Assembly: GCA_902564695.1 (NCBI GenBank)
Contig: CACFCB010000013.1
Span: 1 to 38,065 of the forward strand
Source: an uncultured Prochlorococcus sp.
GTDB taxonomy: Bacteria > Cyanobacteriota > Cyanobacteriia > PCC-6307 > Cyanobiaceae
DNA: 38,065 nt
Direction of reading: 5' to 3'
Within the stretch, counting starts at the first letter, position 1, and each line of letters opens with the position of its first letter. Below the pieces are notes generated by a model. That model was not told where the DNA came from, did not search any database, and worked only from the letters and a program-made list of their open reading frames with translations. The translations under genes and the position numbers were made by a program. Below are positions 1,806-31,021 of the stretch, one piece after another.

Positions 1806-1958
1806 CTATTCATCAACCTTTATTTTCACATGCTCAATATAATTCTCCTTCTCGTTATCTAAATAGAGTTTTCTTAATACAAAAAGAATTAGCGTAAAAA
1901 TACAGACTATCCCAATTGTTTGTATGAAATCTATATAAGTTGCAATGTAATGATTCAT
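1806..1958 (-). CDS. 50-residue single-helix membrane protein
   Basis: One transmembrane helix (about residues 12-29, TIGIVCIFTLILFVLRK) with a short N-terminal part and a charged C-terminal tail (NEKEN...KIKVDE). It follows the previous gene on the same strand with 31 bases between them. Unknown function. Confidence 0.45.
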   Translation of the reverse strand: MNHYIATYIDFIQTIGIVCIFTLILFVLRKLYLDNEKENYIEHVKIKVDE

Positions 1959-2108
1959 AGAAATGATTGTTTTAACAAATATAGTAGGAAGTAAACAAAA
2001 TACTGTATTGAGTTATTGTTAGAAATAATTATTGGAATCAACTAATCACAGGTGAACCCTATTTTATTATTTTATCAAAGTACCTGTCCCTAAATCAAAA
2101 ATTTTACC

Positions 2109-2210
2109 TCACTCAGAAAGGAGTTCCATCAATTGTTCTCCACTAACTTTTTTTATTTCTTGGTAGGCCTCTTTAGAGATTGATTTATAATTATTGAAAA
2201 TAAAAGTTAA
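2109..2210 (-). other. Orphan open stretch, possible gene remnant
   Basis: The spacer from 1959 to 2350 holds no convincing gene. On the minus strand 33 codons are open and protein-like (NYKSISKEAYQEIKKVSGEQ, then LMELLSE and a stop), but they begin straight after a stop codon with no usable start. This may be the 3' end of a decayed gene. Confidence 0.25.
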
Positions 2211-2406
2211 CTACTATTTAATGACTTATGAGACCATAAATACCGATAGGAATAATTGCCTTAATATCAACTTGGTAAACCAATAGTAAAAAAAAAATAG
2301 TTAATACAAATAATATGACTGTATATACAACCTAATGGTTTAGAGGTTATGTAATTATTCCTATACAGACGGTAGCTGTTTGTTCTTATATTTTTGAACT
2401 TCTTAG

Positions 2407-2450
2407 GACAATCTTCTTTTTATACTGAGCTTTTAGAAGATTGTCTTTTT
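2407..2450 (+). terminator. Rho-independent terminator in left repeat
   Basis: An 11-bp perfect stem (GACAATCTTCT / AGAAGATTGTC) with a 17-base loop is followed directly by a run of T. Nothing codes immediately upstream, so it may end a small RNA beginning near the left end of the repeat. Confidence 0.7.
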
Positions 2451-2602
2451 GAGTAATAACGTCAGTGCCCCCCCAGAAGCCAATCAATTGATTGTCTGAC
2501 GTAAAATTATTTTAAAACTACCTTTTCTTCGTTGGTTTTGTAGGACCGTACGTCTTGGTTAGGTAAACCCTAGAAATAATAATCTCTTGAGATTTGATAT
2601 TT

Positions 2603-2628
2603 AAAAAGGGCCCCTAGAGGCCCTTTTC
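2603..2628. terminator. Second, bidirectional-looking terminator in left repeat
   Basis: AAAAGGGCC and GGCCCTTTT form a 9-bp perfect stem with a 6-base loop, with A-rich and T-rich sides, so it could stop transcription in either direction. Confidence 0.7.
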
Positions 2629-3072
2629 TTTACCGATTCTTTTTGGAAGCCTCTGGATTTGGCAGCCTGGGGCCAAGTTTCTAGTTGCAAGGCTTTTTTA
2701 CTCCGTTAGGGCACCTAAACGATGCAGAGGAGTTTCGACTGAATTGACGCACCTATATCATTGATCCTTGTCGCATCAGACGAATAGCCCACTTATTTAT
2801 TGAGAATGTTGGAGCAGGAACCAGAATTCAGTTCGCTTCTCTTAAATACTCAGGTGGAGTGTCGACCATTATTGGTACCTCTGAACTCAACAAACATATC
2901 TTTGCTCTGTTTGCCCCTCAATGCAATCAGCCTTAATGCCCATTGCATTTCCACTTAACCTGATCAAAAATATTAAGTTTGGGATAAAGCTAAGATCTAA
3001 TTAATAAACCAAACCATCTATATGTCGAGATAACAAACAAGCAAACAAGACCAAATAAGCATTTTAGGAGAT

Positions 3073-3198
3073 ATGGCTAAAGGATTTAGAACTGATAATC
3101 AAAAATTAAAAGTAGATAAATAAAAAGATGCGTCATGGATACTGCAGAAAATAGTCTCTGGTCTTGAGGATCCAATTTTCTTAGGTATAAAGAAGTAA
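3073..3198 (+). pseudogene. Small ORF interrupted by an in-frame TAA
   Basis: A start with an AGGAG ribosome-binding site 5 bases upstream opens a 16-codon frame (MAKGFRTDNQKLKVDK) that meets TAA at 3121. The same frame then continues as normal-looking protein (KDASWILQKIVSGLEDPIFL...) to a second TAA at 3196. The whole reads as a 41-codon gene with one nonsense mutation. Alternatively only the first 16 codons are translated. Confidence 0.4.
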
Positions 3199-3234
3199 TC
3201 AAATCAAAAGATTAGTCTTAATTACATCTGACCA

Positions 3235-3504
3235 ATGATTAGAAATCTGTTTTTCATAATTCTCGGAGCATTTAGCGGGCTTTGGTTAATTTGGCCTCAA
3301 ATTATTACGACCAAAGGTTGGGAATGCACAAAGGATGTTATTGCATCTTCCAATGAAGACTTAACAGATATTGAATCATTAGTTGAATCATTGCCAAACA
3401 GAATCAAATTAGGCTTAGCTCTATCCCCTAAAACCTTGCTAAAGAGAGAGGACCTTACTCGCATTGAGAAGCTTAGAATTGTAGGAGATGCTTGCTTTAG
3501 ATAA
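3235..3504 (+). CDS. 89-residue protein with N-terminal membrane anchor
   Basis: The N terminus (MIRNLFFIILGAFSGLWLIW) is a signal anchor or uncleaved signal. The rest is soluble and helical, with two Cys (GWECTKD, GDACFR) that could pair outside the cytoplasm. Probably an envelope or lumen protein of unknown role. The spacing of its Cys pair, one after the helix and one at the C terminus, resembles the other anchored small proteins in this window. Confidence 0.6.
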   Translation: MIRNLFFIILGAFSGLWLIWPQIITTKGWECTKDVIASSNEDLTDIESLVESLPNRIKLGLALSPKTLLKREDLTRIEKLRIVGDACFR

Positions 3505-3559
3505 TAAAATAGACAAAAAAGAAAAAATCTTTTTTTTAATACCAAAAAGAAGTTGCGTA

Positions 3560-4065
3560 TTAAGTAATTAAAGCGATTGCTTCTTTTAATTCGTTCGCAT
3601 GATTAATTTCATCTTGAGCAATTTCACGTATTCATTGATCACTAGGATTAACAGTTAAATACTTTGCAAAAGTTTCATACGCATGCTCTTCAATTTTTAT
3701 ATTTATATCGTATGCATTTGATGGAGATAGCAAGTAATAAAAAAACATTAACCAGTAAGAGAAGAGAACTAAATGCCTTGCATGAAATAGATCAACCCAA
3801 TATCTATTGCCGCTTCGTGATGCCATCTCCTCTAAATGGTCCGTCTCATTAATTGCTTGTAAAAATGAGCCTTCATAAGCTTGTTACTTAAAGGAGTCTT
3901 GAGACCAAGCGAATCTTGTAAATGCAAAAAACTGATAAGAATGCAAAATAAGGGGCTCTAGCAATTACCTCAAGAACCCAAAAAACGTTGAATAGGTCTA
4001 CCTTTGTAGATACGATCAAGAATACTTACACTGAAATCTAAAACAAATGAATTAATACCATTCAT
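3560..4065 (-). pseudogene. Plastoquinol terminal oxidase (PTOX/alternative oxidase) pseudogene
   Basis: PTOX is a di-iron oxidase that passes electrons from plastoquinol to oxygen at the thylakoid as a safety valve. Conserved pieces appear in order on the minus strand but in several frames: LDRIYKGRPIQRF, then WVLEVIARAPYFAFLSV (first Glu ligand), INETDHLEEM (Glu and His ligands), the SGNRYWVDLFHARH block, SPSNAYDINIKIEEHAYETF, and AQDEINHANELKEAI (last Glu/His pair). Damage: an extra base in a T-run near RF/WVL, another frame change after SV, a TAA before QAYEGS, and a TGA at 3632-3634 before IREIAQDE. All iron-ligand motifs survive, so decay looks recent, but no full-length protein can be made. 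Confidence 0.85.
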
Positions 4066-4179
4066 AATTCCTTAGTACACTGCTTAGATATAAATACTCA
4101 AAATAAATGTGGTTTATAAATTATTTATTTAACTATCGATAACTAAAGGCTGAATATGTAAGTAGACCAATGATCAAAT

Positions 4180-4356
4180 CTATCTTGCTCGAACAGGTTG
4201 GTAAGCAGGAATCATCTTTCCTCCACCGAAATCGTCATCATCATCTGGAAGCGCTCTTGAAATTAGTTCTACTAGAACTAGAGTCGCCATAGGATAGAAG
4301 CACCATAAAACAGCTTTCCAGGTGGGAAATGAGTCAATTAGCTGAAGCTCAGACAT
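4180..4356 (-). CDS. 58-aa one-helix protein with Asp-run/GGG/Met tail
   Basis: A helix (about residues 14-33, KAVLWCFYPMATLVLVELI) is followed by PDDDDDFGGGKMIPAYQPV. The same architecture, membrane helix then Asp run then Gly run then Met, occurs in the genes at 6788-6964 and 14061-14216, which otherwise differ in sequence. The tail resembles an acidic metal- or protein-binding patch at the membrane surface. Function unknown; calling it a family is my inference from the shared tail. Confidence 0.6.
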   Translation of the reverse strand: MSELQLIDSFPTWKAVLWCFYPMATLVLVELISRALPDDDDDFGGGKMIPAYQPVRAR

Positions 4357-4447
4357 GTATCAGAAAATTGTTTGCACAAAACTAACTGATCTAAAAATAT
4401 TTAGTGTGACGGTTAACACGAAGTTAAGGTTTATCTAATCGAAACTA

Positions 4448-4639
4448 GTGTAAAAAAATTACTTCAAGCTGGCTATGTTTTCCACAGCTTCGGAGTCACT
4501 AAATAACTCCAAGTTCTAAATAAAAAGCAATTTCCATAAAAAAGACCCTAGGTATGGTGTCCTACGGGCCTGGGTGATGGGGATCTTATTTTTAACTGTT
4601 TTTCAACCAAATTGCAACCCCTACCATATCTGGTGTTAG
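4448..4639 (+). pseudogene. Damaged copy of the DPRYGVLR peptide gene
   Basis: Read in one frame this stretch aligns with the intact 65-codon gene at 21444-21641 (other strand) with no gap in the 21 codons before the core: KNYFK...FSTA, then HKKDPRYGVLRAWVMGILFL against NKKDPRYGVLRVWVMGILFL. Here codon 2 is TAA and a second TAA follows SKF, so it is not translatable from the start. Within the core, three of five differing codons are synonymous (Ile, Leu, Leu), a sign that the shared segment was held as protein. The sequences diverge after LT-x-F. Confidence 0.5.
4570..4585 (+). repeat. CTGGGTGATGGGGATC element, copy 1
   Basis: First of four copies of this 16-mer (others at 4726-4741, and on the minus strand at 21361-21376 and 21505-21519, the last matching 15 bases). 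It lies within the DPRYGVLR pseudogene, where it encodes the WVMGI part. Confidence 0.7.
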
Positions 4640-4725
4640 AAAGATTAAAAAAACAGAAAAAAAGACCCATATCTGGAATTATTAGCTTGCGTAATATGTA
4701 CACAGCGAGTAGTATTTTCAAATTA

Positions 4726-4741
4726 CTGGGTGATGGGGATC
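4726..4741 (+). repeat. CTGGGTGATGGGGATC element, copy 2
   Basis: Exact second copy, 156 bases after the first, followed 14 bases later by a strong terminator. The surrounding bases do not match copy 1, so the 16-mer itself is the conserved unit. Confidence 0.7.
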
Positions 4742-4755
4742 TCTCAGTATCTTCT

Positions 4756-4778
4756 CCCTCAAATTTGAGGGTTTTTTT
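4756..4778 (+). terminator. Rho-independent terminator after the tandem 16-mers
   Basis: CCCTCAAATTTGAGGG is a perfect 16-base palindrome followed by seven T. It closes the transcription unit that contains both copies of the 16-mer. Confidence 0.75.
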
Positions 4779-4872
4779 ATGCCATGAATTTCTGCTCGTA
4801 ATTTCTAAGATGGATTAAGGCAAAATTAGTGAAAAACTGTTTTGAACCTTATTTTTTTCCCAATTCGAGAAG

Positions 4873-5085
4873 ATGGAACAAGTAACTGATGCAATTGGTA
4901 ATCCCACAGTACTCTTAGTAGAGAGAGTTTTTTGGTTTGGGTTAGGTGCATTTTTAGGGCTGGCAATAATAAGTTCTTTACTAAGAGGATTAAAAAAAGG
5001 AAAGAACAAAACGACACCAGTTTCACCTTATCAATTAGAGAATCTTGCAAAAAAAGCGATCCAACAAAACAGTGATGGCAATTGA
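4873..5085 (+). CDS. 70-residue single-helix membrane protein
   Basis: A short polar N terminus, a helix at about residues 19-37 (RVFWFGLGAFLGLAIISSLL), then a basic segment (RGLKKGKNKTT) consistent with a cytoplasmic tail, and a soluble end with YQLENLAKKAI. No known domain. It has the same small-protein style as its neighbours. Confidence 0.55.
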   Translation: MEQVTDAIGNPTVLLVERVFWFGLGAFLGLAIISSLLRGLKKGKNKTTPVSPYQLENLAKKAIQQNSDGN

Positions 5086-5212
5086 TATTGGTTATCAGAT
5101 ATTTTTATAGCGACAAACAAATTTACTTATGGCAACTGGGGCGAGAACCGTACAATCAGCTACCACTGATTAGATGATGAGCATATATGCTTAATACATA
5201 TTCACAAAAACA

Positions 5213-5293
5213 ATGAAATTAGTTCCTTACATATTCATGGCTGTTGCAATCTTCTCAGAAGTTTCAACAATTGCTACGACTCCTATTATCTAA
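5213..5293 (+). pseudogene. Possible fragment of a small multidrug resistance transporter
   Basis: A 26-codon frame reads MKLVPYIFMAVAIFSEVSTI and stops after six more residues. It resembles the first helix of SMR/EmrE-type drug exporters, including the Glu at the position of the conserved membrane Glu, but the remaining three helices are absent and no further similarity follows the stop. It may equally be an independent hydrophobic mini-peptide. Confidence 0.3.
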
Positions 5294-5321
5294 CTGAATC
5301 TCATTAATTGAGTATTCAGAC

Positions 5322-5360
5322 CTAACGCGTTCGGATGAATACCGACGTTAGATTATTTTT
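5322..5360 (+). terminator. Hairpin before the secreted FPF-family gene
   Basis: CTAACG...CGTTAG with an inner TCGG...CCGA forms a two-part stem and is followed by ATTATTTTT. It lies 16 bases upstream of the next start codon, so it may end upstream transcription or act as a leader hairpin of that gene. Confidence 0.45.
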
Positions 5361-5375
5361 AATTGATATATATCC

Positions 5376-5636
5376 ATGCTCAAAAAAATATTTAGGGCTG
5401 CTAGATTTTTAGCTTTGTCTATTTTTATAACTTCAACAACAATCTTTTCAGGAATTAACCCTGTAGTAGCCGCGCAAATGAGTTCTGACATGAACGAGGA
5501 CAATTCTATGGGTATTGTGATCGAAGAATCAAGTGATGCCTTGAATGCTTCGAAAACTAGTGCTGCCCCAGACCTTGGAGATGATCAAACATTTCCTTTT
5601 ATTCCAGGTTTTGGTAAAAATTCCGGTAAAGACTAA
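5376..5636 (+). CDS. Small secreted protein, FPF-x-PG-x-G family (member 1)
   Basis: 86 residues. A classic signal peptide (MLKKIFRAARFLALSIFITS...) ends at VVAA; the mature part is acidic and Ser/Asn-rich and finishes with LGDDQTFPFIPGFGKNSGKD. The C-terminal G-[DP]-[DE]-x-x-FPF-x-P motif recurs in the products at 14344-14592 and 17720-17980, each a short, exported, acidic protein, and a related PF-x-x-PG-x-G end occurs at 13682-13876. Probably periplasmic or lumenal. The motif could be a docking tail or processing signal. No known family recognised. Confidence 0.65.
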   Translation: MLKKIFRAARFLALSIFITSTTIFSGINPVVAAQMSSDMNEDNSMGIVIEESSDALNASKTSAAPDLGDDQTFPFIPGFGKNSGKD

Positions 5637-5774
5637 TTATCTTTTTGTTGAAAACTATTGATTGATAATAAATTACTAACTTTTCCGATAGCTGGAAAAA
5701 AACCAAAGATATAACTGAACATTAGCTCTACCATTTTCATTGAAAGATGTGAGTCAAAAATAATTATTCTTGTT

Positions 5775-5843
5775 ATGTTTGCAGTGCTTACAACTGGGTC
5801 AATCGCACCATTGATAAGGATGGTCAGTGATCGTATTTCCTAA
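5775..5843 (+). CDS. Possible 22-residue peptide
   Basis: ATG frame starting MFAVLTTGSIAPLIRMV, ending two bases before the start of the next small gene. Proximity suggests a translational pair, but it is too short for confidence. Confidence 0.2.
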   Translation: MFAVLTTGSIAPLIRMVSDRIS

Positions 5844-5845
5844 GA

Positions 5846-5959
5846 ATGACTTTGCTTGGACAAGCTGAGATCATTGGAGGAATTCTTCATAACATGATAG
5901 CTTTTGGCCTTTTGTTATTAATTTTTTATTTTGCAAAAATTGGAAATATCTTGAAATAA
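5846..5959 (+). CDS. 37-residue single-helix membrane protein
   Basis: A short N terminus (MTLLGQAEIIGGILHN) and one helix (MIAFGLLLLIFYFAKIG) ending in a Lys. Sized like photosystem or cytochrome b6f small subunits, but I recognise no specific one. Confidence 0.4.
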   Translation: MTLLGQAEIIGGILHNMIAFGLLLLIFYFAKIGNILK

Positions 5960-6029
5960 ATGGATGGAACAAAAAAATCTAGAGAATAATCTCTAGATTC
6001 ATATGAAAATTGATTTAATTTAGAGCTGT

Positions 6030-6326
6030 TTAAAATATGCCAGGGATTATTTGACCAGTAGTGATATAAGCACCAAGTAAAGCAATCATTCCAATCATTG
6101 CCCAACGGCCATTGGTCTTTTCTGCTTCTTCAGGATAGTTGGAATAATTTTCAACTAGTTGAGTTTGTACCTGGGTAGCAAACATGTTTTGCTTACCGTA
6201 TTCAGTAATGATCTGGTTAGAAGCAGAACTGTAAGCTGGGATTCCTGTTGGATCAACAAGTTGACCATCTGATTGGTTATCAGTTGGATCAATTGATTTT
6301 TCAGAAACTGTGTTACTAGAAGTCAT
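6030..6326 (-). CDS. hli: High-light-inducible chlorophyll-binding protein (Hli), 98 aa
   Basis: An Hli/SCP protein: a long polar N-terminal extension of about 65 residues, then the canonical helix EKTNGRWAMIGMIALLGAYI (complete ExxNGRxAMxG) and the typical Prochlorococcus ending TTGQIIPGIF. Such proteins form dimers in the thylakoid, bind chlorophyll a and carotenoids through the Glu/Asn/Arg residues, and protect photosystem II assembly and repair. Its start lies 8 bases after the stop of the short Hli gene at 6335-6442, so the pair forms an operon. The unusually long extension sets it apart from the minimal forms. Confidence 0.9.
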   Translation of the reverse strand: MTSSNTVSEKSIDPTDNQSDGQLVDPTGIPAYSSASNQIITEYGKQNMFATQVQTQLVENYSNYPEEAEKTNGRWAMIGMIALLGAYITTGQIIPGIF

Positions 6327-6334
6327 TTATTAAC

Positions 6335-6442
6335 CTAAAAAATGCCTGGAATGATTTGACCTGTTGTAGCGTAAGCACCGAAAGCAGCAATAAAGCCGAT
6401 CATTGCCATCCAACCATTAAACTTTTCTGCTTCTGGAGTCAC
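6335..6442 (-). CDS. hli: Short Hli protein, 35 aa, Trp in place of motif Arg
   Basis: Starts at a GTG, the only usable start in the open frame, giving MTPEAEKFNG and then WMAMIGFIAAFGAY and TTGQIIPGIF. The ending is identical to its operon partner. The pigment-binding signature ExxNGRxAMxG reads EKFNGWMAMIG: the Arg that pairs with the ligand Glu of the partner helix is Trp. Such a helix may rely on a heterodimer with the complete Hli encoded next to it. First gene of the two-gene operon. Confidence 0.85.
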   Translation of the reverse strand: MTPEAEKFNGWMAMIGFIAAFGAYATTGQIIPGIF

Positions 6443-6608
6443 GAGATTAAACTCAATTAATGTTGATGAATGTAAAGGAAAAGTAAAGGAATGTAAAGGG
6501 GGGCGCCCGTACAAAGCAAAAGTTATCAGGGTTATTAGCTGAAGAAATATTTTTTATCCACGGTCTAAATAACAATTCCACTACCCTTGTTGAACTTAAT
6601 TCAACTAG

Positions 6609-6785
6609 ATGGATTTAATACCGGGCGTAATTCTTATCTTTGGGGCAATTGGAACTGTGGCTTTACTTGGTTGGGATACTCTCCAAAATCGTAAGCCAAT
6701 TACTAAAGCTGAATTGAAGCAGTCTAGTGGAACTAGAGCAGCTAAGCCACAACAAAAAACAATAGGGTTATTTAACAGAGGATAA
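6609..6785 (+). CDS. 58-residue single-helix membrane protein
   Basis: An N-terminal helix (IPGVILIFGAIGTVALLGW) is followed by a basic, Gln/Lys/Thr-rich tail ending in LFNRG. It is 2 bases upstream of the next start, indicating an operon with the Asp-tail protein. Function unknown. Confidence 0.55.
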   Translation: MDLIPGVILIFGAIGTVALLGWDTLQNRKPITKAELKQSSGTRAAKPQQKTIGLFNRG

Positions 6786-6787
6786 TT

Positions 6788-6964
6788 ATGGGTGAAATTC
6801 AAACATACTCTTCAAACTCAGGAGATTTTAATTTCCTTTTCGTTCTAATTATTGTTGGGACTTATATTCTTTATGAGGTTGGAAAAGCAATATTGGACAA
6901 CAACGATGATGATGACATGGATGGAGGAATGACGATGCGTGTAGCAGATGGAGCACAGGCCTGA
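6788..6964 (+). CDS. 58-aa one-helix protein with Asp-run/GG/Met tail
   Basis: A polar start, a helix (about residues 15-34, FLFVLIIVGTYILYEVGKAI), then NNDDDDMDGGMTMRVADGAQ. Second member of the Asp-run/Gly/Met tail group (see 4180-4356 and 14061-14216), with the same length as the first. It follows a basic-tailed membrane protein by 2 bases, so an acidic-tail and a basic-tail protein are made together and may interact; that is inference. Confidence 0.6.
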   Translation: MGEIQTYSSNSGDFNFLFVLIIVGTYILYEVGKAILDNNDDDDMDGGMTMRVADGAQA

Positions 6965-7072
6965 ATTGACAACCAGAATAATAGGTACTTATTGACTACA
7001 AAAATTTGACGTCTCTAAATAGGTTTAAGGGTGAATTGAATATATAATTAGTCATCTATTTAATTAAAAATT

Positions 7073-7210
7073 TTGAGCGAAGAAAATATCAAAAGAAAAA
7101 TAGATGCTTTATTAAAAGAACTTCAGGAGAAAACACGTGTTTCGGATGAGGAGATGTTCGAATTAAAAAAAATAATGGAACTAGCAGATTTTTCACAAGA
7201 CCAAGAATAA
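7073..7210 (+). CDS. 45-residue helical soluble protein
   Basis: Starts at TTG (no ATG in frame downstream of the upstream stop before Met28). The product is one long amphipathic helix with heptad-like pattern (KRKIDALLKELQEKTRVSDEEM...LKKIMELADF). Likely a small coiled-coil protein. Unknown role. Confidence 0.45.
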   Translation: MSEENIKRKIDALLKELQEKTRVSDEEMFELKKIMELADFSQDQE

Positions 7211-7239
7211 TTTATGTATAAGTAGGGATGAATGAAGGT

Positions 7240-7392
7240 CTAGCGAGATGCGAGTTTTGACCAAATAAGCAGTACCAACACGTTAAACAATGCATATCCA
7301 AAAGCAATTTGCATTTGGTAAAAATATCCAACAATCGAAGAGGATCCCAAAATGATCAAACTAGTAATAATAATATCTCTTGAAAAATTCAC
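7240..7392 (-). CDS. 50-residue two-helix membrane protein
   Basis: GTG start. Two hydrophobic segments (IIITSLIILGSSSIVGYFY and IAFGYALFNVLVLLIW) with a short turn and a basic end (SKLASR). No domain recognised. Moderate confidence because of size and start codon. Confidence 0.4.
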   Translation of the reverse strand: MNFSRDIIITSLIILGSSSIVGYFYQMQIAFGYALFNVLVLLIWSKLASR

Positions 7393-7435
7393 CTAAAATA
7401 ATCAGGCACTATAAATATTCAGATTGAAAATAAAA

Positions 7436-7594
7436 TCATGAAAGTCTTATTTGATTTTCAATCGAATAAGCATTGCTTGTGCAGGTCTCATTACCTATAA
7501 CTTGAGAAACAGCAATAACTAGAAGACTTAGAGAACCAACCGCTAGAGACATTGTTCTAATAGCACTGGCTTTCTTAGAGATTTTCTTGCTCAT
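7436..7594 (-). CDS. 52-residue signal-anchored small protein
   Basis: A basic start (MSKKISKKASAIRT), a hydrophobic stretch (SLAVGSLSLLVIAVSQVIG) and a short polar tail with a single Cys (NETCTSNAYS). It reads as an exported or inner-membrane mini-protein. Unknown function. Confidence 0.45.
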   Translation of the reverse strand: MSKKISKKASAIRTMSLAVGSLSLLVIAVSQVIGNETCTSNAYSIENQIRLS

Positions 7595-7744
7595 ATCAAA
7601 AAATCTTGATGAAATAAGAATATGTCAACTATCCAAGCATAAAAGAGTATCTATTGATACCTAGTAGAAATAATTACCTAAAAATTATTAGAACAATTCT
7701 GAATAGAACTAAATCAACTGAAAACTAGATTTAAATTGATTACT

Positions 7745-8030
7745 TTACTTACATGCTTGCGATGGTTGTTGCGAGCTTTCTTTTAACAGTTCAATCCAAT
7801 CTTGCAAAGAATTTAATGAGTCAATATTTAATTGGTAATAAACCTATCTACCAGTTTGCCTATCGGTAATCAAACCTGCGTCTTAAAAACTTTTAAATGA
7901 AAGATATTTTCGATTGCGCCAATCCAATTTCATTAATCAAGTCACAAACACATCGTTCTCCTCCTGAGAGAGACTTAATGATTTGCAATCGAAATGGATC
8001 AGATAAAACTTTTAGAAATTTCCTGGACAT
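7745..8030 (-). pseudogene. arsR: arsR pseudogene (ArsR/SmtB-family repressor)
   Basis: The translation starts as a normal ArsR repressor: KFLKVLSDPFRLQIIKSLSG, then GERCVCDLINEIGLAQSKIS with the C-V-C metal motif, and FHLK of the recognition helix. Within a T/A run at about 7881-7890 one base is missing and the frame shifts; the expected continuation DAGLITDRQTGR follows in another frame, then an in-frame TAG at 7844-7846 sits where a Trp is usual, before VYYQLNIDSLNSLQDWIELL and the end. Two independent lesions make a sequencing error unlikely. It would have been divergent from gap-arsJ, which it presumably repressed until arsenic bound. Confidence 0.85.
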
Positions 8031-8074
8031 TGAATTTTTCAAGCACTACTTAACTCTTTGTCTCTGTGGCCATC

Positions 8075-8097
8075 AAAAAAAAAAAAAAAAAAAAAAA
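8075..8097 (+). repeat. Uninterrupted A23 tract followed by TA repeats
   Basis: Twenty-three consecutive A followed by (TA)-rich sequence, in the spacer between the arsR remnant and gap. Such a tract is rigid, prone to slippage, and lies upstream of the presumed promoter, so length variants could change gap-arsJ expression. Confidence 0.9.
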
Positions 8098-8160
8098 TAT
8101 ATATATAATCACATGATAAAACAAACCGCAGAAAAAGCTTGTATCAACAAACCTCTATAT

Positions 8161-8176
8161 ATCAACATAAATTGAT
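8161..8176. promoter_or_regulatory. Putative ArsR operator upstream of gap-arsJ
   Basis: ATCAACATAAATTGAT is a perfect ATCAA-N6-TTGAT inverted repeat, 51 bases before the gap start. From memory this matches the inverted-repeat type bound by many bacterial ArsR repressors. The same spacing recurs twice upstream of pstS at 12331-12364. Confidence 0.6.
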
Positions 8177-8227
8177 ATGAGGAATATAATCATTTATTGA
8201 TTCACTCAATCAACTCATTTACACATT

Positions 8228-9253
8228 ATGCGAATCGGTATTAATGGTTTTGGTCGTATAGGACGACTAGTCCTTAGAGCGCTCTGGGGTAGAGAAAATA
8301 TCGAGATTACACATATCAACGATCCATTTGGTGATGCAAAGGGAGCTGCGCATTTACTTGAATTTGATTCAGTTCATGGTCGTTGGAACAAATCAATAAG
8401 CAACGACCAAAACAACCTGAGTATTGAAGGTCAGTCAATATCCTTTTCTAAGGAAAGAGATTTTATAAAAGTCCCATGGAATGAGTCAGGGGTAAAGATA
8501 ATTCTCGAATGCTCAGGCAAATTTAAAACCCCTCAAACATTAAATCCATATTTCGAAACTCTCGGTATGAAAAGAGTTGTCGTTGCATGTCCAGTTAAAG
8601 GAGAAATCCAGGGAGAGGATGCTCTAAATATCGTCTACGGTATTAATCATGGTTTATACGAGCCCAACAAACATCGCTTAGTAACAGCTGCATCCTGCAC
8701 AACTAATTGCTTAGCTCCCGTTATAAAAGTTGTTAATCAAGCTTTTGGTATCAAGCATGGAAGCATTACAACACTTCATGATTTAACCAATACACAGGTA
8801 ATTGTTGATTCATTTAAGCCAGATTTAAGAAGAGCCAGAAGCGGATCACAAAGTTTAATACCAACAACTACAGGTTCGGCAAAAGCGATAGGGATGATTT
8901 TCCCAGAATTGCAAGGCAAATTAAATGGCCATGCAGTTCGAGTTCCTCTCCTCAATGGATCTTTAACTGATGCTGTATTTGAATTAGAGAAAGAGGTAAC
9001 GCAAGAAGAAGTCAATCATGTGTTCAAAGAAGCTTCAGAAGGAGAGCTAAATGGAATACTCGGTTATGAAGAAAAGCCACTTGTCTCAATCGATTATGTC
9101 AATGACTCAAGGAGTTCAATCATTGATGCTCTCTCAACCATGGTCGTCAACGAAACTCAACTGAAAGTTTATATTTGGTATGACAATGAATGGGGGTATA
9201 GCTGTCGAATGGCTGATCTCGTTTGCCATGTCATAAATCTCGAAAAAGGTTAA
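8228..9253 (+). CDS. gap: ArsJ-associated glyceraldehyde-3-phosphate dehydrogenase
   Basis: A 341-residue type I GAPDH. Seen: NAD-binding start [13 protein letters not shown], catalytic Cys157 in ASCTTNC, His184 in [10 protein letters not shown], and the ending [16 protein letters not shown]. The HDLTNTQ form differs from HAYTATQ of glycolytic GAPDH and is, as I recall, typical of ArsJ-linked enzymes. In that system GAPDH uses arsenate instead of phosphate to form unstable 1-arseno-3-phosphoglycerate, which ArsJ exports. The MFS gene begins 10 bases downstream, so the two form an operon. An ArsR-type operator lies upstream while arsR itself is broken. A housekeeping role is less likely given the neighbour. 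Confidence 0.9.
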
Positions 9254-9263
9254 AAATAAAAAT

Positions 9264-10517
9264 ATGCGATTAACGGCATTGCAACAATATGGAATCGTAA
9301 CGACCAACTATTGGGCATTCACGCTGACAGATGGTGCTCTAAGGATGCTAGTGATTTTTCACTTTCACAGCCTTGGATATACAACCTTAGAAATCGCATT
9401 CTTATTCCTTTTTTACGAGTTCTTTGGCGTTATCACTAATCTCTATGGTGGATGGATTGGAGCAAGGTATGGATTACGTCTAACACTTTGGGTCGGGACT
9501 CTTTTACAAATCGGTGCCTTATTGATGTTGATACCCGTTTCAAGTGGTTGGTCGAAACTTTTGAGTGTCATTTATGTCATGGTTGCTCAAGCAATTAGTG
9601 GTATAGCAAAAGATCTAAATAAGATGAGTGCTAAAAGTGCCATCAAAACTGTAGTTCCAGACTCCTCAGAAGACGATGGTGGAAATAATCAATTATTTAA
9701 ATGGGTAGCCATCTTAACTGGTTCAAAAAATGCACTCAAAGGAGTTGGCTTCTTTCTTGGTGGGCTTTTGCTTACAAGTTTTGGTTTTAATACAGCAGTT
9801 GAATTAATGGCAATCGGATTAGCTGTTTCGTTTTTAATGACATTGATTTTGCCTGGAGATATTGGAAAGATGAAAAGCAAACCCATATTTAAAGACTTAT
9901 TTTCTAAATCTCAAGGGATCAACGTCCTATCTTTTGCACGTTTTTTTCTCTTTGGGGCGAGAGACGTATGGTTCGTCGTAGCACTTCCTGTTTTTCTTGA
10001 AACGTATTTAAATTGGAATTTTTCTGAGATTGGAGCGTTCCTAGGTTTATGGGTTATTGGTTATGGCTTTATCCAAGCGTTTGCACCGTCTTTAAGAAAT
10101 TTATGGGGAAATAAAACAAGTCCAGGAGTTGCTTCTGTTCAATTTTGGAGTGCTGTCTTAACTGCGTTACCTGCGCTAATAGCAATAGCACTATGGCGAC
10201 AAAACAATCCAGAAATAGCAATTACCGTTGGATTAATACTATTTGGATTCGTTTTTGCAATGAACTCATCAATACATTCATATATGGTTCTTGCTTATAC
10301 AGACAAGGATAACGTAAGTCTAAACGTGGGCTTCTATTACATGGCAAATGCAGCAGGGAGACTTATTGGTACGCTCTTATCTGGTGTCCTATTTTTGCTT
10401 GGGAGCAATGCCTCTATAGGAATGCAAGTTTGTTTATGGTGTTCAAGCTTGTTTTTATTCATTTCTTTATTTATAAGCCTACGACTACCATTAGTATCAA
10501 CGAAAAAAGTCTACTAA
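9264..10517 (+). CDS. arsJ: ArsJ organoarsenical efflux permease (MFS)
   Basis: A 417-residue major facilitator protein with about twelve hydrophobic segments. Seen: TLTDGALRMLVIFHFHSLGY at the start, YEFFGVITNLYGGWIGARYG in the loop 2-3 region, GIAKDLNKMSAKSAIK in the central part, FGARDVWFVVALPVF, and YYMANAAGRLIGTLLSGVLF near the end. These match ArsJ, which moves 1-arseno-3-phosphoglycerate out of the cell, giving net arsenate detoxification. Ten bases separate it from gap upstream. Length is normal for ArsJ and the frame is intact. Marine cyanobacteria need this because their high-affinity phosphate uptake also brings in arsenate; the phosphate-binding protein gene lies 0.8 kb downstream. 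Confidence 0.9.
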   Translation: MRLTALQQYGIVTTNYWAFTLTDGALRMLVIFHFHSLGYTTLEIAFLFLFYEFFGVITNLYGGWIGARYGLRLTLWVGTLLQIGALLMLIPVSSGWSKLLSVIYVMVAQAISGIAKDLNKMSAKSAIKTVVPDSSEDDGGNNQLFKWVAILTGSKNALKGVGFFLGGLLLTSFGFNTAVELMAIGLAVSFLMTLILPGDIGKMKSKPIFKDLFSKSQGINVLSFARFFLFGARDVWFVVALPVFLETYLNWNFSEIGAFLGLWVIGYGFIQAFAPSLRNLWGNKTSPGVASVQFWSAVLTALPALIAIALWRQNNPEIAITVGLILFGFVFAMNSSIHSYMVLAYTDKDNVSLNVGFYYMANAAGRLIGTLLSGVLFLLGSNASIGMQVCLWCSSLFLFISLFISLRLPLVSTKKVY

Positions 10518-10558
10518 GCTCTTTGCGATTTCTATTAGACGGGATGGAAGTAAATTTT

Positions 10559-10936
10559 TTATTTTTGTAGACAATCAAAATAAGGTTGTTTTTTGGCTTT
10601 TTTCTGTTTTATACATACATCAATTTTATCTAATTCTGTATTTGAACGATTGGTTTCATTTAGTTTAATATTTTTATTTGACTTAATAGAGCGCTCGTTC
10701 ACACCTTTATTAATATTTTCTGAATTATCTAAATTATTTTGAGTTGACTTATTATCAATAGATTTTTTCAAATCGATTGCACATCCAGAAATAGGAAGAC
10801 CTTGAGCTTTTTTCAGTTCAATACATTGATCTAACTTCTCTAATTCTGATTGTTTCAAATTTTTTATTTGATCTTTCTCAGGACAACCTGTTAAGAAAAT
10901 CAGAAAAACAGGTGACAAGACAAGGAAGCGTTTCAT
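10559..10936 (-). CDS. Small lipoprotein with duplicated Cys motif
   Basis: 125 residues. The N terminus MKRFLVLSPVFLIFLTGC carries a lipobox (L-T-G-C), so it is probably lipid-anchored to the outer or plasma membrane. The mature part has two related segments: KLDQCIELKKAQGLPISGC near the start and KIDVCIKQKKAKKQPYFDC at the end, separated by an Asn/Lys/Ser-rich linker. Each has two Cys with the same 13-residue gap, suggesting an internal duplication and two small disulfide modules. It converges on arsJ. Unknown function. Confidence 0.7.
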   Translation of the reverse strand: MKRFLVLSPVFLIFLTGCPEKDQIKNLKQSELEKLDQCIELKKAQGLPISGCAIDLKKSIDNKSTQNNLDNSENINKGVNERSIKSNKNIKLNETNRSNTELDKIDVCIKQKKAKKQPYFDCLQK

Positions 10937-10998
10937 GTAATCGTTTATTTATTTGAATCATACTTTATAAAAAATATTAATTAGAGATTAGGAAAAAA

Positions 10999-11196
10999 TT
11001 ACTGAACCTCTGATTCTCTATCATACTTGAGTCCAGCTTCATTCATCCAAGCAGCTTTTGTTTTACAGTTTTTATCATGCTCAGCAAGATGTAATCCCTC
11101 AATCGAAATAAATAAAACTAGCAATGAGACAGGAAACCACCAGACAGGAGAACTAACTATTTGCTTCCAATTATTTCGTAATTCATTATTTTTCAT
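10999..11196 (-). CDS. 65-residue single-helix membrane protein
   Basis: A polar N terminus (MKNNELRNNWKQIV), one helix (SSPVWWFPVSLLVLFISIEG), then HLAEHDKNCKTKAAWMNEAG and a charged end. Same strand as the lipoprotein and pstS. No family recognised. Confidence 0.5.
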   Translation of the reverse strand: MKNNELRNNWKQIVSSPVWWFPVSLLVLFISIEGLHLAEHDKNCKTKAAWMNEAGLKYDRESEVQ

Positions 11197-11255
11197 ATTA
11201 AAGAACTTTTTTTAAGTTTAAGTTATGAAGCTACAACTAGCAAAATAAAAAGATT

Positions 11256-11285
11256 TTAGAAAGGATGCGTTAGCCTTCTTTCTAA
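11256..11285 (-). terminator. Terminator of pstS
   Basis: TTAGAAAG and CTTTCTAA form an 8-bp stem extended inward by GG/CC. Read on the minus strand it follows the pstS stop by 17 bases and is followed by a T-rich stretch. Confidence 0.65.
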
Positions 11286-11302
11286 TATTATGAGGATTTA
11301 AT

Positions 11303-12307
11303 TTACTTACCAATACGCCTTACGGCAGCGCGCGACTTAGCAAGAATTTCACCTTTTAAAGATACAAACCCAAGAGAAGGAGCCTTATCCTGGGCTTTAT
11401 CACTTAGTAGATAGTTAAGTGAATCTTGAATGGCTTGCGTGTTTCTACCATTACCAGTTTCATAAGCAAGGACCCAAGTCAAAGTAGCAATCGGGTATGC
11501 CCCCTTGGCTTTAGGGTTAGGGTTATTACCGGCTAAATTTTTATCTAGTTGTATTTCATTAAGAGCTATCGCACCAGCCTCAGTAGTTGGTTGTAAGAAC
11601 TCTCCTGATAAATTCTGAAGAGCGGCTGCTTTAATTTCACCTGTAATATATGACTGGTTTACATAACCAATTGCACCGGAAGTGTTACGAATAACACCAG
11701 CGACACCTGCGTTACCTTTAGCACCAACGCCAGAAGGCCAGGCAACAGATTTACCTATTCCTAGAGACCAGGTCTTTGAAAAAGCTTGCATGGAATTTGT
11801 AAAAGCCTTCGTAGTACCAGAGCCATCTGAACGATGCGTCCAAGTTAGTTTTCCTTCAGGGCAACCAACCTCTTTCCAGTTTGTAATTTTACCCATAGCG
11901 ACACGAACAGCTTGTTCTTGAGTAAGTTTAAGATCGCAATCGTAGTTATAACCAAAGGCAATAGTGCCACCAACCATTGGAATTTGAACTAATCCACGTG
12001 ATACTTTTGCAATATCTGTTGCTTTCATCGGATCATCAGACGCACCGAAATTAACGGTCTCATCAATGAAAGCTTTACGGCCAGAACCAGAACCAACAGC
12101 TTGATAGTTAACACGAGGTCCACCCTCTTTAGCTAAGTCAGAGAACCATCGAGTATAGATTTTAGCGGGAAAAGAGGCGCCAGCTCCGCTGAGTCGAGCA
12201 CCTGCAAAGGCACTTCCACCTGAGCCAAAAATAATTAAAGAGGAAAGAACAAGACTCTTCCTAGCAAAGCTCATCAAAAGTCTGCGACGTAAAAGTAATG
12301 AAAGCAT
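11303..12307 (-). CDS. pstS: Periplasmic phosphate-binding protein PstS/SphX type
   Basis: A 334-residue substrate-binding protein for high-affinity phosphate uptake, delivering phosphate to the PstCAB transporter. Seen: a signal peptide ending near SAFAGA, GAGASFP (residues 41-47), AVGSGSGRKAF (70-80), FGASDDPM (87-94) and the phosphate-binding RSDGSGTT (159-166). The first start (used here) gives an Arg-rich extension; a second Met at residue 12 (MSFARKSL) gives a more usual signal peptide and may be the real start. No pstC, pstA, pstB, phoB or phoR lies nearby, so this is a stand-alone copy. Its promoter carries ArsR-like inverted repeats, not an obvious Pho box, suggesting arsenic-linked control. 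Confidence 0.92.
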   Translation of the reverse strand: MLSLLLRRRLLMSFARKSLVLSSLIIFGSGGSAFAGARLSGAGASFPAKIYTRWFSDLAKEGGPRVNYQAVGSGSGRKAFIDETVNFGASDDPMKATDIAKVSRGLVQIPMVGGTIAFGYNYDCDLKLTQEQAVRVAMGKITNWKEVGCPEGKLTWTHRSDGSGTTKAFTNSMQAFSKTWSLGIGKSVAWPSGVGAKGNAGVAGVIRNTSGAIGYVNQSYITGEIKAAALQNLSGEFLQPTTEAGAIALNEIQLDKNLAGNNPNPKAKGAYPIATLTWVLAYETGNGRNTQAIQDSLNYLLSDKAQDKAPSLGFVSLKGEILAKSRAAVRRIGK

Positions 12308-12330
12308 AGGACGAAAAGGTGTCGATATAG

Positions 12331-12376
12331 ATCAATATTAATTGATACATCAATTGATATTGATCTATCAATTGAT
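12331..12376. promoter_or_regulatory. Cluster of ATCAA...TTGAT inverted repeats upstream of pstS
   Basis: Three overlapping or adjacent repeats occur within 46 bases: ATCAATATTAATTGAT (12331-12346) and ATCAATTGATATTGAT (12349-12364), both ATCAA-N6-TTGAT, and the palindrome ATCAATTGAT (12367-12376). They begin 24 bases before the pstS start. The spacing equals the single site before gap-arsJ, so one ArsR-family regulator could bind both promoters. Binding is inferred. Confidence 0.6.
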
Positions 12377-12469
12377 ATGCCTCTGCGGCAAATAACAAAT
12401 TAAGAATATAAATTACTGCTTGAATGAGCGAAGCGGTATTTTACGAACAATATTAGGATTAATGATTGG

Positions 12470-12652
12470 TTGCAAACCAACCAAAAGAACAATCAAGCAT
12501 TTAATAAGAAGTTGAAAAACAAAGTAAAATATCTTCAAATAATTCTAGTCTTAATAATCGGCACATCTATATCTTTTAGGCAATACAAAAACACATATCC
12601 AGATCCGAGTGAGAGAAAAGATTTGTCTATTAAAGGAATCTTTCTAGATTAA
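12470..12652 (+). CDS. 60-residue single-helix protein
   Basis: The likely start is TTG at 12470; no ATG exists in this frame. A basic, Asn/Lys-rich N terminus, a helix (YLQIILVLIIGTSISF), and a polar tail (PDPSERKDLSIKGIFLD). Reads as a membrane-anchored mini-protein. Start and reality are uncertain. Confidence 0.4.
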   Translation: MQTNQKNNQAFNKKLKNKVKYLQIILVLIIGTSISFRQYKNTYPDPSERKDLSIKGIFLD

Positions 12653-12755
12653 AATTGTTATGTTTACAAAAATATAAAACATAAACAAGGTTTAAATGTA
12701 TCAATTTAGACTAAAGTAAAGAAAGAATGAAGGATTGAAGAAAAGAGGGAACTAA

Positions 12756-12986
12756 ATGAGATGGCCACCGAATGCAGCTTGGACCTCAGCAGTAAAAAGA
12801 GAAGGTTATCGACATTTTGAAGTTAAAAGCTATGGAGGCAAAAAAGATGAACGGTGGGTAGAACTATTCCCAGTTAACAACAACAAAATCCTTATAAGAG
12901 TTCCATGGTCGGAATTAAAAACATACTCAAAGTGGACGAGTGGATGGCTTCAATTGCCAAAAGATGATGATTACGATGGCAACTAA
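12756..12986 (+). CDS. Trp-rich conserved protein (TIGR02450-like)
   Basis: 76 residues with Trp at regular places: MRWPPNAAWTSAV, the strand-like HFEVKSYGGKKDERWVELFP, then ILIRVPWSELKTYSKWTSGW. The order 'W-T-x-V ... HF-x-V ... V-x-L ... I/VPW-x-EL ... W-x-x-GW' matches the small Trp-rich family TIGR02450 found in cyanobacteria and marine bacteria, whose function is not known. Length fits. The right repeat copy begins 30 bases after its stop. Confidence 0.75.
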   Translation: MRWPPNAAWTSAVKREGYRHFEVKSYGGKKDERWVELFPVNNNKILIRVPWSELKTYSKWTSGWLQLPKDDDYDGN

Positions 12987-13071
12987 TCTTTAGAGAAAAT
13001 AAAAAAATATTTCAAGTAATTACTCCTACACAGACGGTAGCTGTTTGTTCTTATATTTTTGAACTTCTTAG

Positions 13072-13115
13072 GACAATCTTCTTTTTATACTGAGCTTTTA
13101 GAAGATTGTCTTTTT
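13072..13115 (+). terminator. Rho-independent terminator in right repeat
   Basis: Identical to the one at 2407-2450: 11-bp stem and T-run. Confidence 0.7.
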
Positions 13116-13267
13116 GAGTAATAACGTCAGTGCCCCCCCAGAAGCCAATCAATTGATTGTCTGACGTAAAATTATTTTAAAACTACCTTTTCTTCGTTGG
13201 TTTTGTAGGACCGTACGTCTTGGTTAGGTAAACCCTAGAAATAATAATCTCTTGAGATTTGATATTT

Positions 13268-13293
13268 AAAAAGGGCCCCTAGAGGCCCTTTTC
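13268..13293. terminator. Second terminator in right repeat
   Basis: Identical to 2603-2628: AAAAGGGCC / GGCCCTTTT stem. Confidence 0.7.
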
Positions 13294-13681
13294 TTTACCG
13301 ATTCTTTTTGGAAGCCTCTGGATTTGGCAACCTGGGGCCAAGTTTCTAGTTGCAAGGCTTTTTTACTCCGTTAGGGCACCTAAACGATGCAGAGGAGTTT
13401 CGACTGAATTGACGCACCTATATCATTGATCCTTGTCGCATCAGACGAATAGCCCACTTATTTATTGAGAATGTTGGAGCAGGAACCAGAATTCAGTTCG
13501 CTTCTCTTAAATACTCAGGTGGAGTGTCGACCATTATTGGTACCTCTGAACTCAACAAACATATCTTTGCTCTGTTTGCCCCTCAATGCAATCAGCCTTA
13601 ATGCCCATTGCATTTCCACTTAACCTGATCAAAAATATTAAGTTTGGGATAAAGCTAAGATCTAATTAATAAACCAAAAAA

Positions 13682-19956: not shown

Positions 19957-20475
19957 TTATTTGGCTTCTTCAGTTGCTTTTCTGGCTTTGCGTGCACGTC
20001 TAGCAGGTCTACCAGCACTTTGTTTGACAACCGCAGGAACCTCAGATTTAGCTTTAGGTGAAGACTTTTTAGCTACAGGCTTTTTAGCTACTGCTTTCTT
20101 AGATGTTGCCTTTTTAGCAACTGTTTTTTGGGCAGATGCTTTTTTAGCAGTAGATTTCTTAACTGCAGCAGCTTTTGGAACAGCGCCTTTGCGTGTGCGA
20201 TGAGAAAGAATTAAAGCCCATTCATCAGCGCTAATATTAGCTGGCTTATTTCCATGAACTTCAGAAACTTTAGCGGCTTTTTCGATATCTTTAATTAAGT
20301 TTTTCCAAGAAGCAGCGTAACGCTTATCAGACTGAGATTTTGCTCCACTTTCAACAAGGGTTTCAACGACTTGAGAAGCAGTAACCTTTTTACGACGTCT
20401 GTTAAAAATCTCTTTTTGCAAGGTAGCGATCAAGGCATCACCTTTAGCGCTAACTTTGATGGATAACTGAGACAT
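19957..20475 (-). CDS. Histone H1-like DNA-binding protein, paralog 1
   Basis: 172 residues. The first 97 form a conserved domain (MSQLSIKVSAKG, NRRRKKVTASQVVETLVESG, DKRYAASWKNLIKDIEKAAK, ISADEWALILSHRTRKG). Then comes a low-complexity Lys/Ala/Pro tail of repeated AKK units like the C-terminal domain of histone H1, and the end GRPARRARK. The N-domain differs from paralog 2 (30434-31021) at only 4 of 97 positions, whereas the tails differ in length and order. Probably a nucleoid- or RNA-binding protein. Its exact target is unknown. Confidence 0.75.
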   Translation of the reverse strand: MSQLSIKVSAKGDALIATLQKEIFNRRRKKVTASQVVETLVESGAKSQSDKRYAASWKNLIKDIEKAAKVSEVHGNKPANISADEWALILSHRTRKGAVPKAAAVKKSTAKKASAQKTVAKKATSKKAVAKKPVAKKSSPKAKSEVPAVVKQSAGRPARRARKARKATEEAK

Positions 20476-30433: not shown

Positions 30434-31021
30434 CTAAGCTTTTAAAGCCTTAGTACTAACTTTTCTTGCACGTCTTGCAGGTCGGCCTGCAACAGCTTTA
30501 GCAATACGCTTTGCAACTGAATTAGTACTTCTAGATGTTGTTTTAGCTTGAGTAGAAGCTACTTTCTTTACAGCTGTCTTAACTTTGGAGGCACTAACCT
30601 TTGATTTGATAGCACGTTTAGCAGGTGCAGTTTTTATAACTGATTTCTTAACAACTGTCTTATTGGCAGCAGCTTTTTTAGCTACTGCCTTTTTAGCGGG
30701 AGGTTTTAGTGTTGATTTTTTAGTAGTAATTCCCTTGCGAGTACGATGTGAAAGAATCAGCGCCCATTCTTCAGCACTTATATTTGCTGGCTTATTACCA
30801 TGGATCTCAGAAACTTTGGCAGCTTTCTCAATATCCTTGATTAGGTTTTTCCAGGATGCCGCATAACGCTTATCAGACTGAGATTTAGCTCCGCTCTCAA
30901 CAAGAGTTTCAACGACTTGCGATGCAGTTACTTTTTTTCTTCTTCGATTGAAGATTTCTTTTTGCAAAGTAGCGATCATGGCTTCGCCTTTTGCGCTAAC
31001 TTTGATACTTAATTGAGACAT
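30434..31021 (-). CDS. Histone H1-like DNA-binding protein, paralog 2
   Basis: 195 residues; the N-domain (97 residues) is about 96% identical to paralog 1 at 19957-20475 (changes: D13E, L15M, V73I, D84E, all conservative). The tail is longer (about 85 residues), Lys/Ala/Thr-rich with repeated AKK units, and again closes with AGRPARRARK. A strict N-domain with a drifting tail suggests a selected interaction surface plus a general polycation. Possibly nucleoid compaction. Both paralogs share a 3' RNA fold. Confidence 0.75.
   Translation of the reverse strand: MSQLSIKVSAKGEAMIATLQKEIFNRRRKKVTASQVVETLVESGAKSQSDKRYAASWKNLIKDIEKAAKVSEIHGNKPANISAEEWALILSHRTRKGITTKKSTLKPPAKKAVAKKAAANKTVVKKSVIKTAPAKRAIKSKVSASKVKTAVKKVASTQAKTTSRSTNSVAKRIAKAVAGRPARRARKVSTKALKA

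Follow-up and report, generated by a model that had tools for sequence, protein, structure and literature searches.

A stretch of 38,065 nucleotides from an uncultured Prochlorococcus sp. (assembly GCA_902564695.1, contig CACFCB010000013.1, positions 1 to 38,065; in the following the window) carries two direct repeats of 663 bp, copy A (2351..3013) and copy B (13016..13678), on either side of an interval with arsenic- and phosphate-related genes (3014..13015); no strand is assigned to repeats or interval. This arrangement raises the question what the repeats are and what keeps them alike. A preliminary description regarded them as non-coding and assumed a recent duplication or ongoing gene conversion. 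Our analysis leads to a partly different answer. Very probably, each repeat carries one copy of the gene encoding the small RNA Yfr103, gene conversion keeps both copies alike, and the 5' end of this RNA is a translated micro open reading frame (micro-ORF).

Both copies could be aligned without gaps over 663 bp and differ in exactly three substitutions (2358 T/C, 2364 T/C and 2665 G/A). They are spaced by 10,665 bp. These values agree with the preliminary description. The likeness ends sharply at both repeat edges, where the flanks differ, and within the window the pair was the top non-self match, far above chance. Only copies A and B were found in the window's own genome, a draft of 76 contigs with 72% completeness. 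The term non-coding no longer fits, as each copy holds an RNA gene that is conserved and contains a likewise conserved micro-ORF.

The RNA gene lies on the minus strand at 2603..2888 in copy A, with a predicted start at ~2886-2891 and a length of ~284-289 nt, and at 13268..13553 in copy B. On this strand the first element is an imperfect palindrome, GCAATGGGCATTAAGGCTGATTGC (2923..2946, the same in copy B at 13588..13611), which is conserved in relatives. It is followed by a -10-like TATGTT (2893..2898), assigned by eye, the predicted start, a Shine-Dalgarno sequence AGAGG (2878..2882 and 13543..13547) and the micro-ORF MVDTPPEYLREAN with its stop (2828..2869 and 13493..13534). Further downstream stand TGCTCCAAC (2808..2816), invariant in 35 aligned relatives, two TAGGTGC motifs in the elements GGATCAATGATATAGGTGC (2749..2767) and CTGCATCGTTTAGGTGCCC (2709..2727), then GGCCCCAGG and a predicted intrinsic terminator, AAAAGGGCCTCTAGGGGCCCTTTTT (2603..2627 and 13268..13292), recognized in copy A by folding and by eye. 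Both the -10 box and the terminator at 2603..2627 were missed by a consensus scan. The GGATCAATGATATAGGTGC element was absent among the Synechococcus sequences compared and is located at the 3' end in five high-light-type sequences. An RNA from the plus strand was rejected, since its folding was no better than that of shuffled sequences (z -0.26) and palindrome, Shine-Dalgarno sequence and ORF are on the minus strand.

Outside the genus the match is confined to repeat offsets ~250-605. A model built from the 3' 93 nt of the RNA only (R1) matched 304 of 400 genomes of the family from 51 of 59 genera, with one to eight matches each (E up to 0.001; these E-values are rough, and matches near the limit were counted without single inspection). 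Of 242 genomes drawn from the whole class, 29 matched, and all 29 belong to this family. The comparison shows that the RNA is conserved across the family. With Rfam, no match at the gathering threshold was obtained across the window, and for 1900-3400 with E up to 5 only two chance-level matches (E ~2, below the gathering score) appeared. The RNA was also considered as the leader of a conserved downstream gene. This was rejected because each neighbour family was shared by 11 or fewer of the 85 loci whose flanks were examined.

R1 had exactly seven matches in G360 (single contig, 2,510,659 bp), which we take to be Synechococcus CC9605. Genomes named Synechococcus WH7803 and RCC307 were matched as well, and others matched by R1 or copy A are presumably SS120, NATL2A and MIT9313. 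Yfr103 was originally described by Voigt et al. 2014. In the accessible part of a later study, Yfr103 is treated as a non-coding RNA with conserved structure and enigmatic function, with seven paralogs of 290-328 nt in Synechococcus CC9605, a palindrome at -29 to -58 and homologs in Synechococcus, SS120, NATL1A/2A, MIT9303 and MIT9313; in situ it made up 55.2% of the CC9605 mdRNA-Seq reads (PMC5069720). The RNA described here is slightly shorter than this published range, its start being a prediction. Its 24-nt palindrome ends ~30-36 nt before the predicted start, which fits the published position. Because copy count, palindrome and strain list agree and the predicted size comes close, the RNA of the repeats is in all likelihood Yfr103.

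The micro-ORF has a constant form: a GGAGG-like site, ATG or TTG, and a peptide beginning M-x-D-T-P-P-E, mostly of 7-14 codons. From 259 loci, 147 distinct 110-nt 5' parts were obtained and searched for a start codon 3-12 nt behind a Shine-Dalgarno-like site and followed by a stop within the 110-nt stretch. This combination was present in 142 of the 147, compared with a mean of 7.0% and a maximum of 15.6% in dinucleotide shuffles, and the 142 ORFs encode 104 different peptides. Three of the five failures have MDDTPPE with the same start and overrun the stretch; the remaining two seem to be misplaced by the anchor. Two loci with non-cyanobacterial labels (L159, L222) were kept among the 147 and contain the usual ORF; they are probably misbinned cyanobacterial contigs. 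A named scan yielded at least 118 stretches, and among the 80 examined three carried such labels (a Rubripirellula metagenome-assembled genome (MAG), Rhodococcus and a proteobacterium MAG).

Changes within the peptide follow the codons. By parsimony on a tree of 141 sequences that was based on the remaining parts of the RNA (the GPT and LP forms being aligned by hand), D-T-P-P-E changed 27, 26 and 82 times at codon positions one, two and three, and the second proline 0, 0 and 20 times. In 69 control window-frames taken from other parts of the RNA the periodicity was always weaker; the margin is moderate, the best control reaching 2.44 vs 2.98. All 129 sequences with a DTPP block (the other 18 of the 147 are without it) have an in-frame start behind the Shine-Dalgarno site, and each of the 118 ATGs between this site and the block is in frame, with the start at varying codons. 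Furthermore, AGGAGG and MIDSLP(E/A)ISE were kept in all five high-light-type genomes fetched, which had been located by the 3' model alone. Such regularities make selection on the coding content of the micro-ORF highly probable, and its translation is strongly inferred from the same sequences. In the partly accessible literature, where Yfr103 is named in PMC5069720 only, no mention was found of an ORF in this RNA, of its relatives in high-light strains or of conversion between its copies; Voigt et al. 2014 might mention the ORF. In the main text of PMC5069720, as far as accessible, the term 'reading frame' is absent and the sole passage on a 'peptide' concerns other genes. The conserved micro-ORF in Yfr103 thus far appears to be new. 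With a function called enigmatic in the accessible text of that study, an apparently translated micro-ORF at the 5' end provides a concrete handle.

A possible mechanism can be outlined. Transcription would start at a promoter that contains a palindromic site for a regulator and would yield a very abundant RNA of ~285 nt. Ribosomes would load at its 5' end, form a few peptide bonds and stop directly ahead of the invariant TGCTCCAAC, which lies 11-12 nt past the micro-ORF stop in 88 of 126 sequences. The act of translation may protect or reshape the RNA, either because ribosomes occupy it or through the nascent MxDTPPE chain, and the 3' domain of the RNA may act in trans. More copies would raise the RNA dose, and conversion would keep them alike. 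On whether translation itself, and not a released peptide, is the point, our judgement is evenly divided. More tentatively, the RNA reported to be the most abundant transcript in marine picocyanobacterial populations may not be non-coding but a dosage-amplified, translation-engaged RNA. Its purpose would be a ribosome event on a very short ORF, for example a loading, stalling or decoy device tuning translation to light and temperature in the most numerous phototrophs of the ocean.

The main rival explanation is a free functional micropeptide, acidic and with an MxDTPPE N-terminus, for which the RNA would chiefly be the mRNA. This has a real, if smaller, chance of being correct. In its favour, the constraint on the first residues acts at the amino-acid level and every block-bearing sequence has a Shine-Dalgarno-like site ahead of the ORF. 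However, the ORF comprises 7-14 codons in an RNA of ~285 nt, strong conservation extends to the other parts of this RNA, and the C-terminal half of the peptide is variable or truncated.

To return to Yfr103 as a converted pair, the history of the two copies was followed in relatives. The genus of the window is Prochlorococcus, presumably its low-light, NATL-like group, and genus g18 is presumably the high-light group. Copy A was matched in 119 of the 296 genomes searched. In 18 genomes of the genus besides the window both copies were readable. In the genus the pair keeps its place and encloses a largely constant set of genes. The left repeat boundary was identical wherever readable; the right one lies near offset 633 in most genomes and at ~660 in some. 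Thus, a recent duplication, one of the two origins first proposed, is not borne out. In the 40 other genomes of the genus, nine without a match and several with one or partial matches were counted. Assembly loss accounts for at least some of these cases, since contigs of G030 and G036 start at most ~50 bases from the repeat edge or inside the repeat.

Within a genome, copies A and B were 93.2-99.7% identical in 17 of the 18 genomes and 99.5% in the window; the 86.8% of G015 is explained by a contig end cutting one copy. The median identity of the repeat between genomes was 92.6%. In the tree, A and B were sisters in 17 of 19 genomes (exceptions G032 and G039), with a support of 0.92-1.0 in nine of them and no support value in eight. 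Over 171 variable columns, A equalled B within the genome in 98.1% of the cells, compared with 76.9% for A and A between genomes, and no fixed difference separates A from B over the first ~628 positions. Sister position, identity within genomes and the lack of a separating position therefore indicate a syntenic pair that is old and undergoes concerted evolution, and ongoing gene conversion, the second origin first proposed, almost certainly keeps both copies alike. The repeat would be a clear natural example of how a multi-copy RNA gene is maintained by conversion in streamlined genomes.

It has to be asked whether the repeats are instead recombination sites of a removable arsenic/phosphate cassette. 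Ten ORFs of the window were compared with Pfam. An ArsR-type helix-turn-helix fragment (E 1.1e-10), GAPDH, an MFS protein and a PstS-like binding protein were recognized in the interval. The gene list given for it in the preliminary description is broadly correct, with weak support for the Hli pair (one candidate below the Pfam cut-off with E 0.0015, the other without any match) and for the PTOX fragment, which resembles alternative oxidase below the cut-off (E 0.0013). None of these ten ORFs is an integrase or transposase, and nothing was found pointing to a standard mobile element, in agreement with the preliminary description.

A one-copy relative without the interval, which a removable cassette should leave behind, was met once. 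On a 114-kb contig of G014 (L092), a single repeat connects the sequence to the left of A with that to the right of B. G014 is a draft single-cell genome, 54% complete, and absent coverage of the interval could give the same join. The spacing of the copies is also variable (~4.5 kb in G023, 8.2 kb in G008, 26 kb in G032). G032 (1,842,899 bp), which we take to be NATL2A, covers 91% of the interval and has ~15 kb of extra DNA between the copies. In contrast, 16 of the 18 genomes cover 88-95% of the interval with 88-91% identity and a length of 9.4-11.9 kb; G015 covers 48%, and its gap-arsJ match is on a different contig. Since most genomes share the interval, the repeat is not tied to its presence or absence; together with the age of the copies, this is the outcome that the preliminary description had named as refuting it. 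The interval does not come and go as a unit, with G014 as an ambiguous exception. In other genera, moreover, the RNA is multi-copy with copies often far apart. A removable cassette is thus unlikely. Recent duplication or a mobile cassette as the main explanation was rejected on the grounds of synteny, the shared interval and the conversion tree. Recombinational loss of the interval is possible.

Several observations weigh against two converted Yfr103 genes with a translated 5' end. The identity with Yfr103 was deduced from count, size, palindrome and strain list, the assignment of CC9605, MED4 and NATL2A being presumptive. Folding of the window RNA is only slightly better than that of shuffles (z -1.15), and a double change was seen in only 9 of 25 consensus pairs. 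Two of the seven copies in G360 share a frameshift after MTAE. In two genomes with eight copies each, 12 of the 16 copies have the ORF, three are without the 5' end and one is ambiguous; at least three of them are shared by both genomes with 100% identity, and the 16 are not independent. The C-terminal half of the peptide varies and is often out of frame, with three longer run-ons, and P-P is not universal, as the hand-aligned GPT and LP forms show. The frameshifted copies of G360 (L276 and L152) lie ~515 kb apart. Over 260 nt they do not differ, so that a broken ORF seems to have been passed on by gene conversion.

The frameshifts would also suit a purely non-coding Yfr103, in which Shine-Dalgarno sequence, ATG and DTPPE are kept for RNA structure or protein binding and resemble an ORF by accident. 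Such an RNA was published as non-coding with conserved structure, as far as the source is accessible (PMC5069720), and in each of the 35 aligned sequences base pairing is predicted between CCUG of the ORF and CAGG close to the 3' end. However, accident does not readily explain why 82 of 135 changes fall on third codon positions, with the second proline changing only there, or why all ATGs stay in frame as the start shifts by whole codons. High-light-type strains keep a similar peptide from different nucleotides, and the 3' side does not track changes on the ORF side, a weak test with few readable rows. Therefore, this explanation is regarded as very improbable. That one copy is an assembly artefact, as a 76-contig draft might suggest, is practically negligible, since the flanks differ between the copies, three differences separate them and all six single-contig genomes of the genus (G002, G011, G019, G025, G032 and G033) have two copies.

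Some further observations concern the RNA in other genomes. In L062, L068 and L091 the RNA is expanded around GGATCAATGATTTAGGTGC, and this region suggests a modular protein- or RNA-binding element. The high-light-type loci L140 and L142-L145 each represent a single diverged relative with the GGATCAATGATTTAGGTGC module at the 3' end; high-light-type strains are missing from the homologs listed in the accessible part of PMC5069720. Three copies with identical spacing (4,620 and 12,870 bp) are found in each of two genomes from different genera (G340:C1:963516-981100 and G103:C1:296402-313986). The stretches around these copies are 100% identical over ~1.1 kb; either an RNA-bearing island was recently transferred or one genome is contaminated. 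In G114:C1:2268133-2269127 three RNA copies stand in tandem with an exact spacing of 450 bp.

Within the window, the left part of the repeat (2351..2600, plus strand) contains conserved hairpins outside the RNA gene and is co-converted with it. It is nearly as conserved in the genus as the RNA gene. One hairpin shows a paired change (AATCTTC/GAAGATT in the window, AACCTTC/GAAGGTT elsewhere), and two exchangeable loop alleles occur, GATGACCAATGC-like and ATCGCCCTTGGT. It may possibly be a second small RNA. A plus-strand ORF of 50-52 aa at 2800-2958, inside the repeat, is unlikely to have a common frame in relatives, as judged by eye from their indels. A second direct repeat in the window (20186-20475 and 30732-31021, 290 bp, 82% identity) overlaps minus-strand ORFs of 172 and 195 aa. 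No transfer RNA was found in the window. A phage source was considered and rejected: copy A had no match in phages and the RNA pattern no exact match in viral contigs; the pattern of Shine-Dalgarno sequence, ATG and DTPPE alone matched 11 viral contigs.

Compared with known systems, the order of 5' Shine-Dalgarno sequence, micro-ORF, hairpins and terminator is that of leader-peptide attenuators of the trp and erm type. Unlike in these, no common downstream gene was found for the RNA described here at the 85 loci compared. Multi-copy RNA genes such as rRNA evolve in concert, and the repeats resemble them in being near identical within and different between genomes. They differ in that the RNA is not rRNA and diverged subfamilies coexist in Synechococcus genomes.

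A likeness exists to Yfr8/Yfr9 of MED4, RNAs of 290 nt of which one has a potential peptide ORF of 44 residues; they are located at ~340 kb (PMC2518516). In G302 (1,657,990 bp), the source of L145 and presumably MED4, the match lies at 980 kb. Yfr8/Yfr9 were rejected as the same gene because place and ORF differ. Yfr103 itself agrees with the RNA of the repeats in CC9605 copy count, approximate length, upstream palindrome, strain distribution and multi-copy state. The differences are that Yfr103 is treated as non-coding in the accessible account, with SS120, NATL1A/2A, MIT9303 and MIT9313 as the only Prochlorococcus strains listed with homologs, whereas the present analysis adds a micro-ORF that is conserved, high-light-type Prochlorococcus with diverged copies, and conversion between copies.

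Dual-function small RNAs, among them Spot 42/SpfP, SgrS/SgrT, SR1/SR1P and RNAIII, are likewise structured RNAs bearing a short ORF. Their peptides are longer, with 43 residues for SgrT and 39 for SR1P (PMC5126843) and 26 for the RNAIII peptide (PMC2518516), as given in the accessible parts of these sources, in contrast to mostly 7-14 codons here. Moreover, conservation of the Yfr103 peptide is largely limited to its first seven residues, and Yfr103 is a multi-copy gene. One mark of this class, an ORF under coding selection together with a ribosome-binding site, appears from the sequence comparison to be present in Yfr103.

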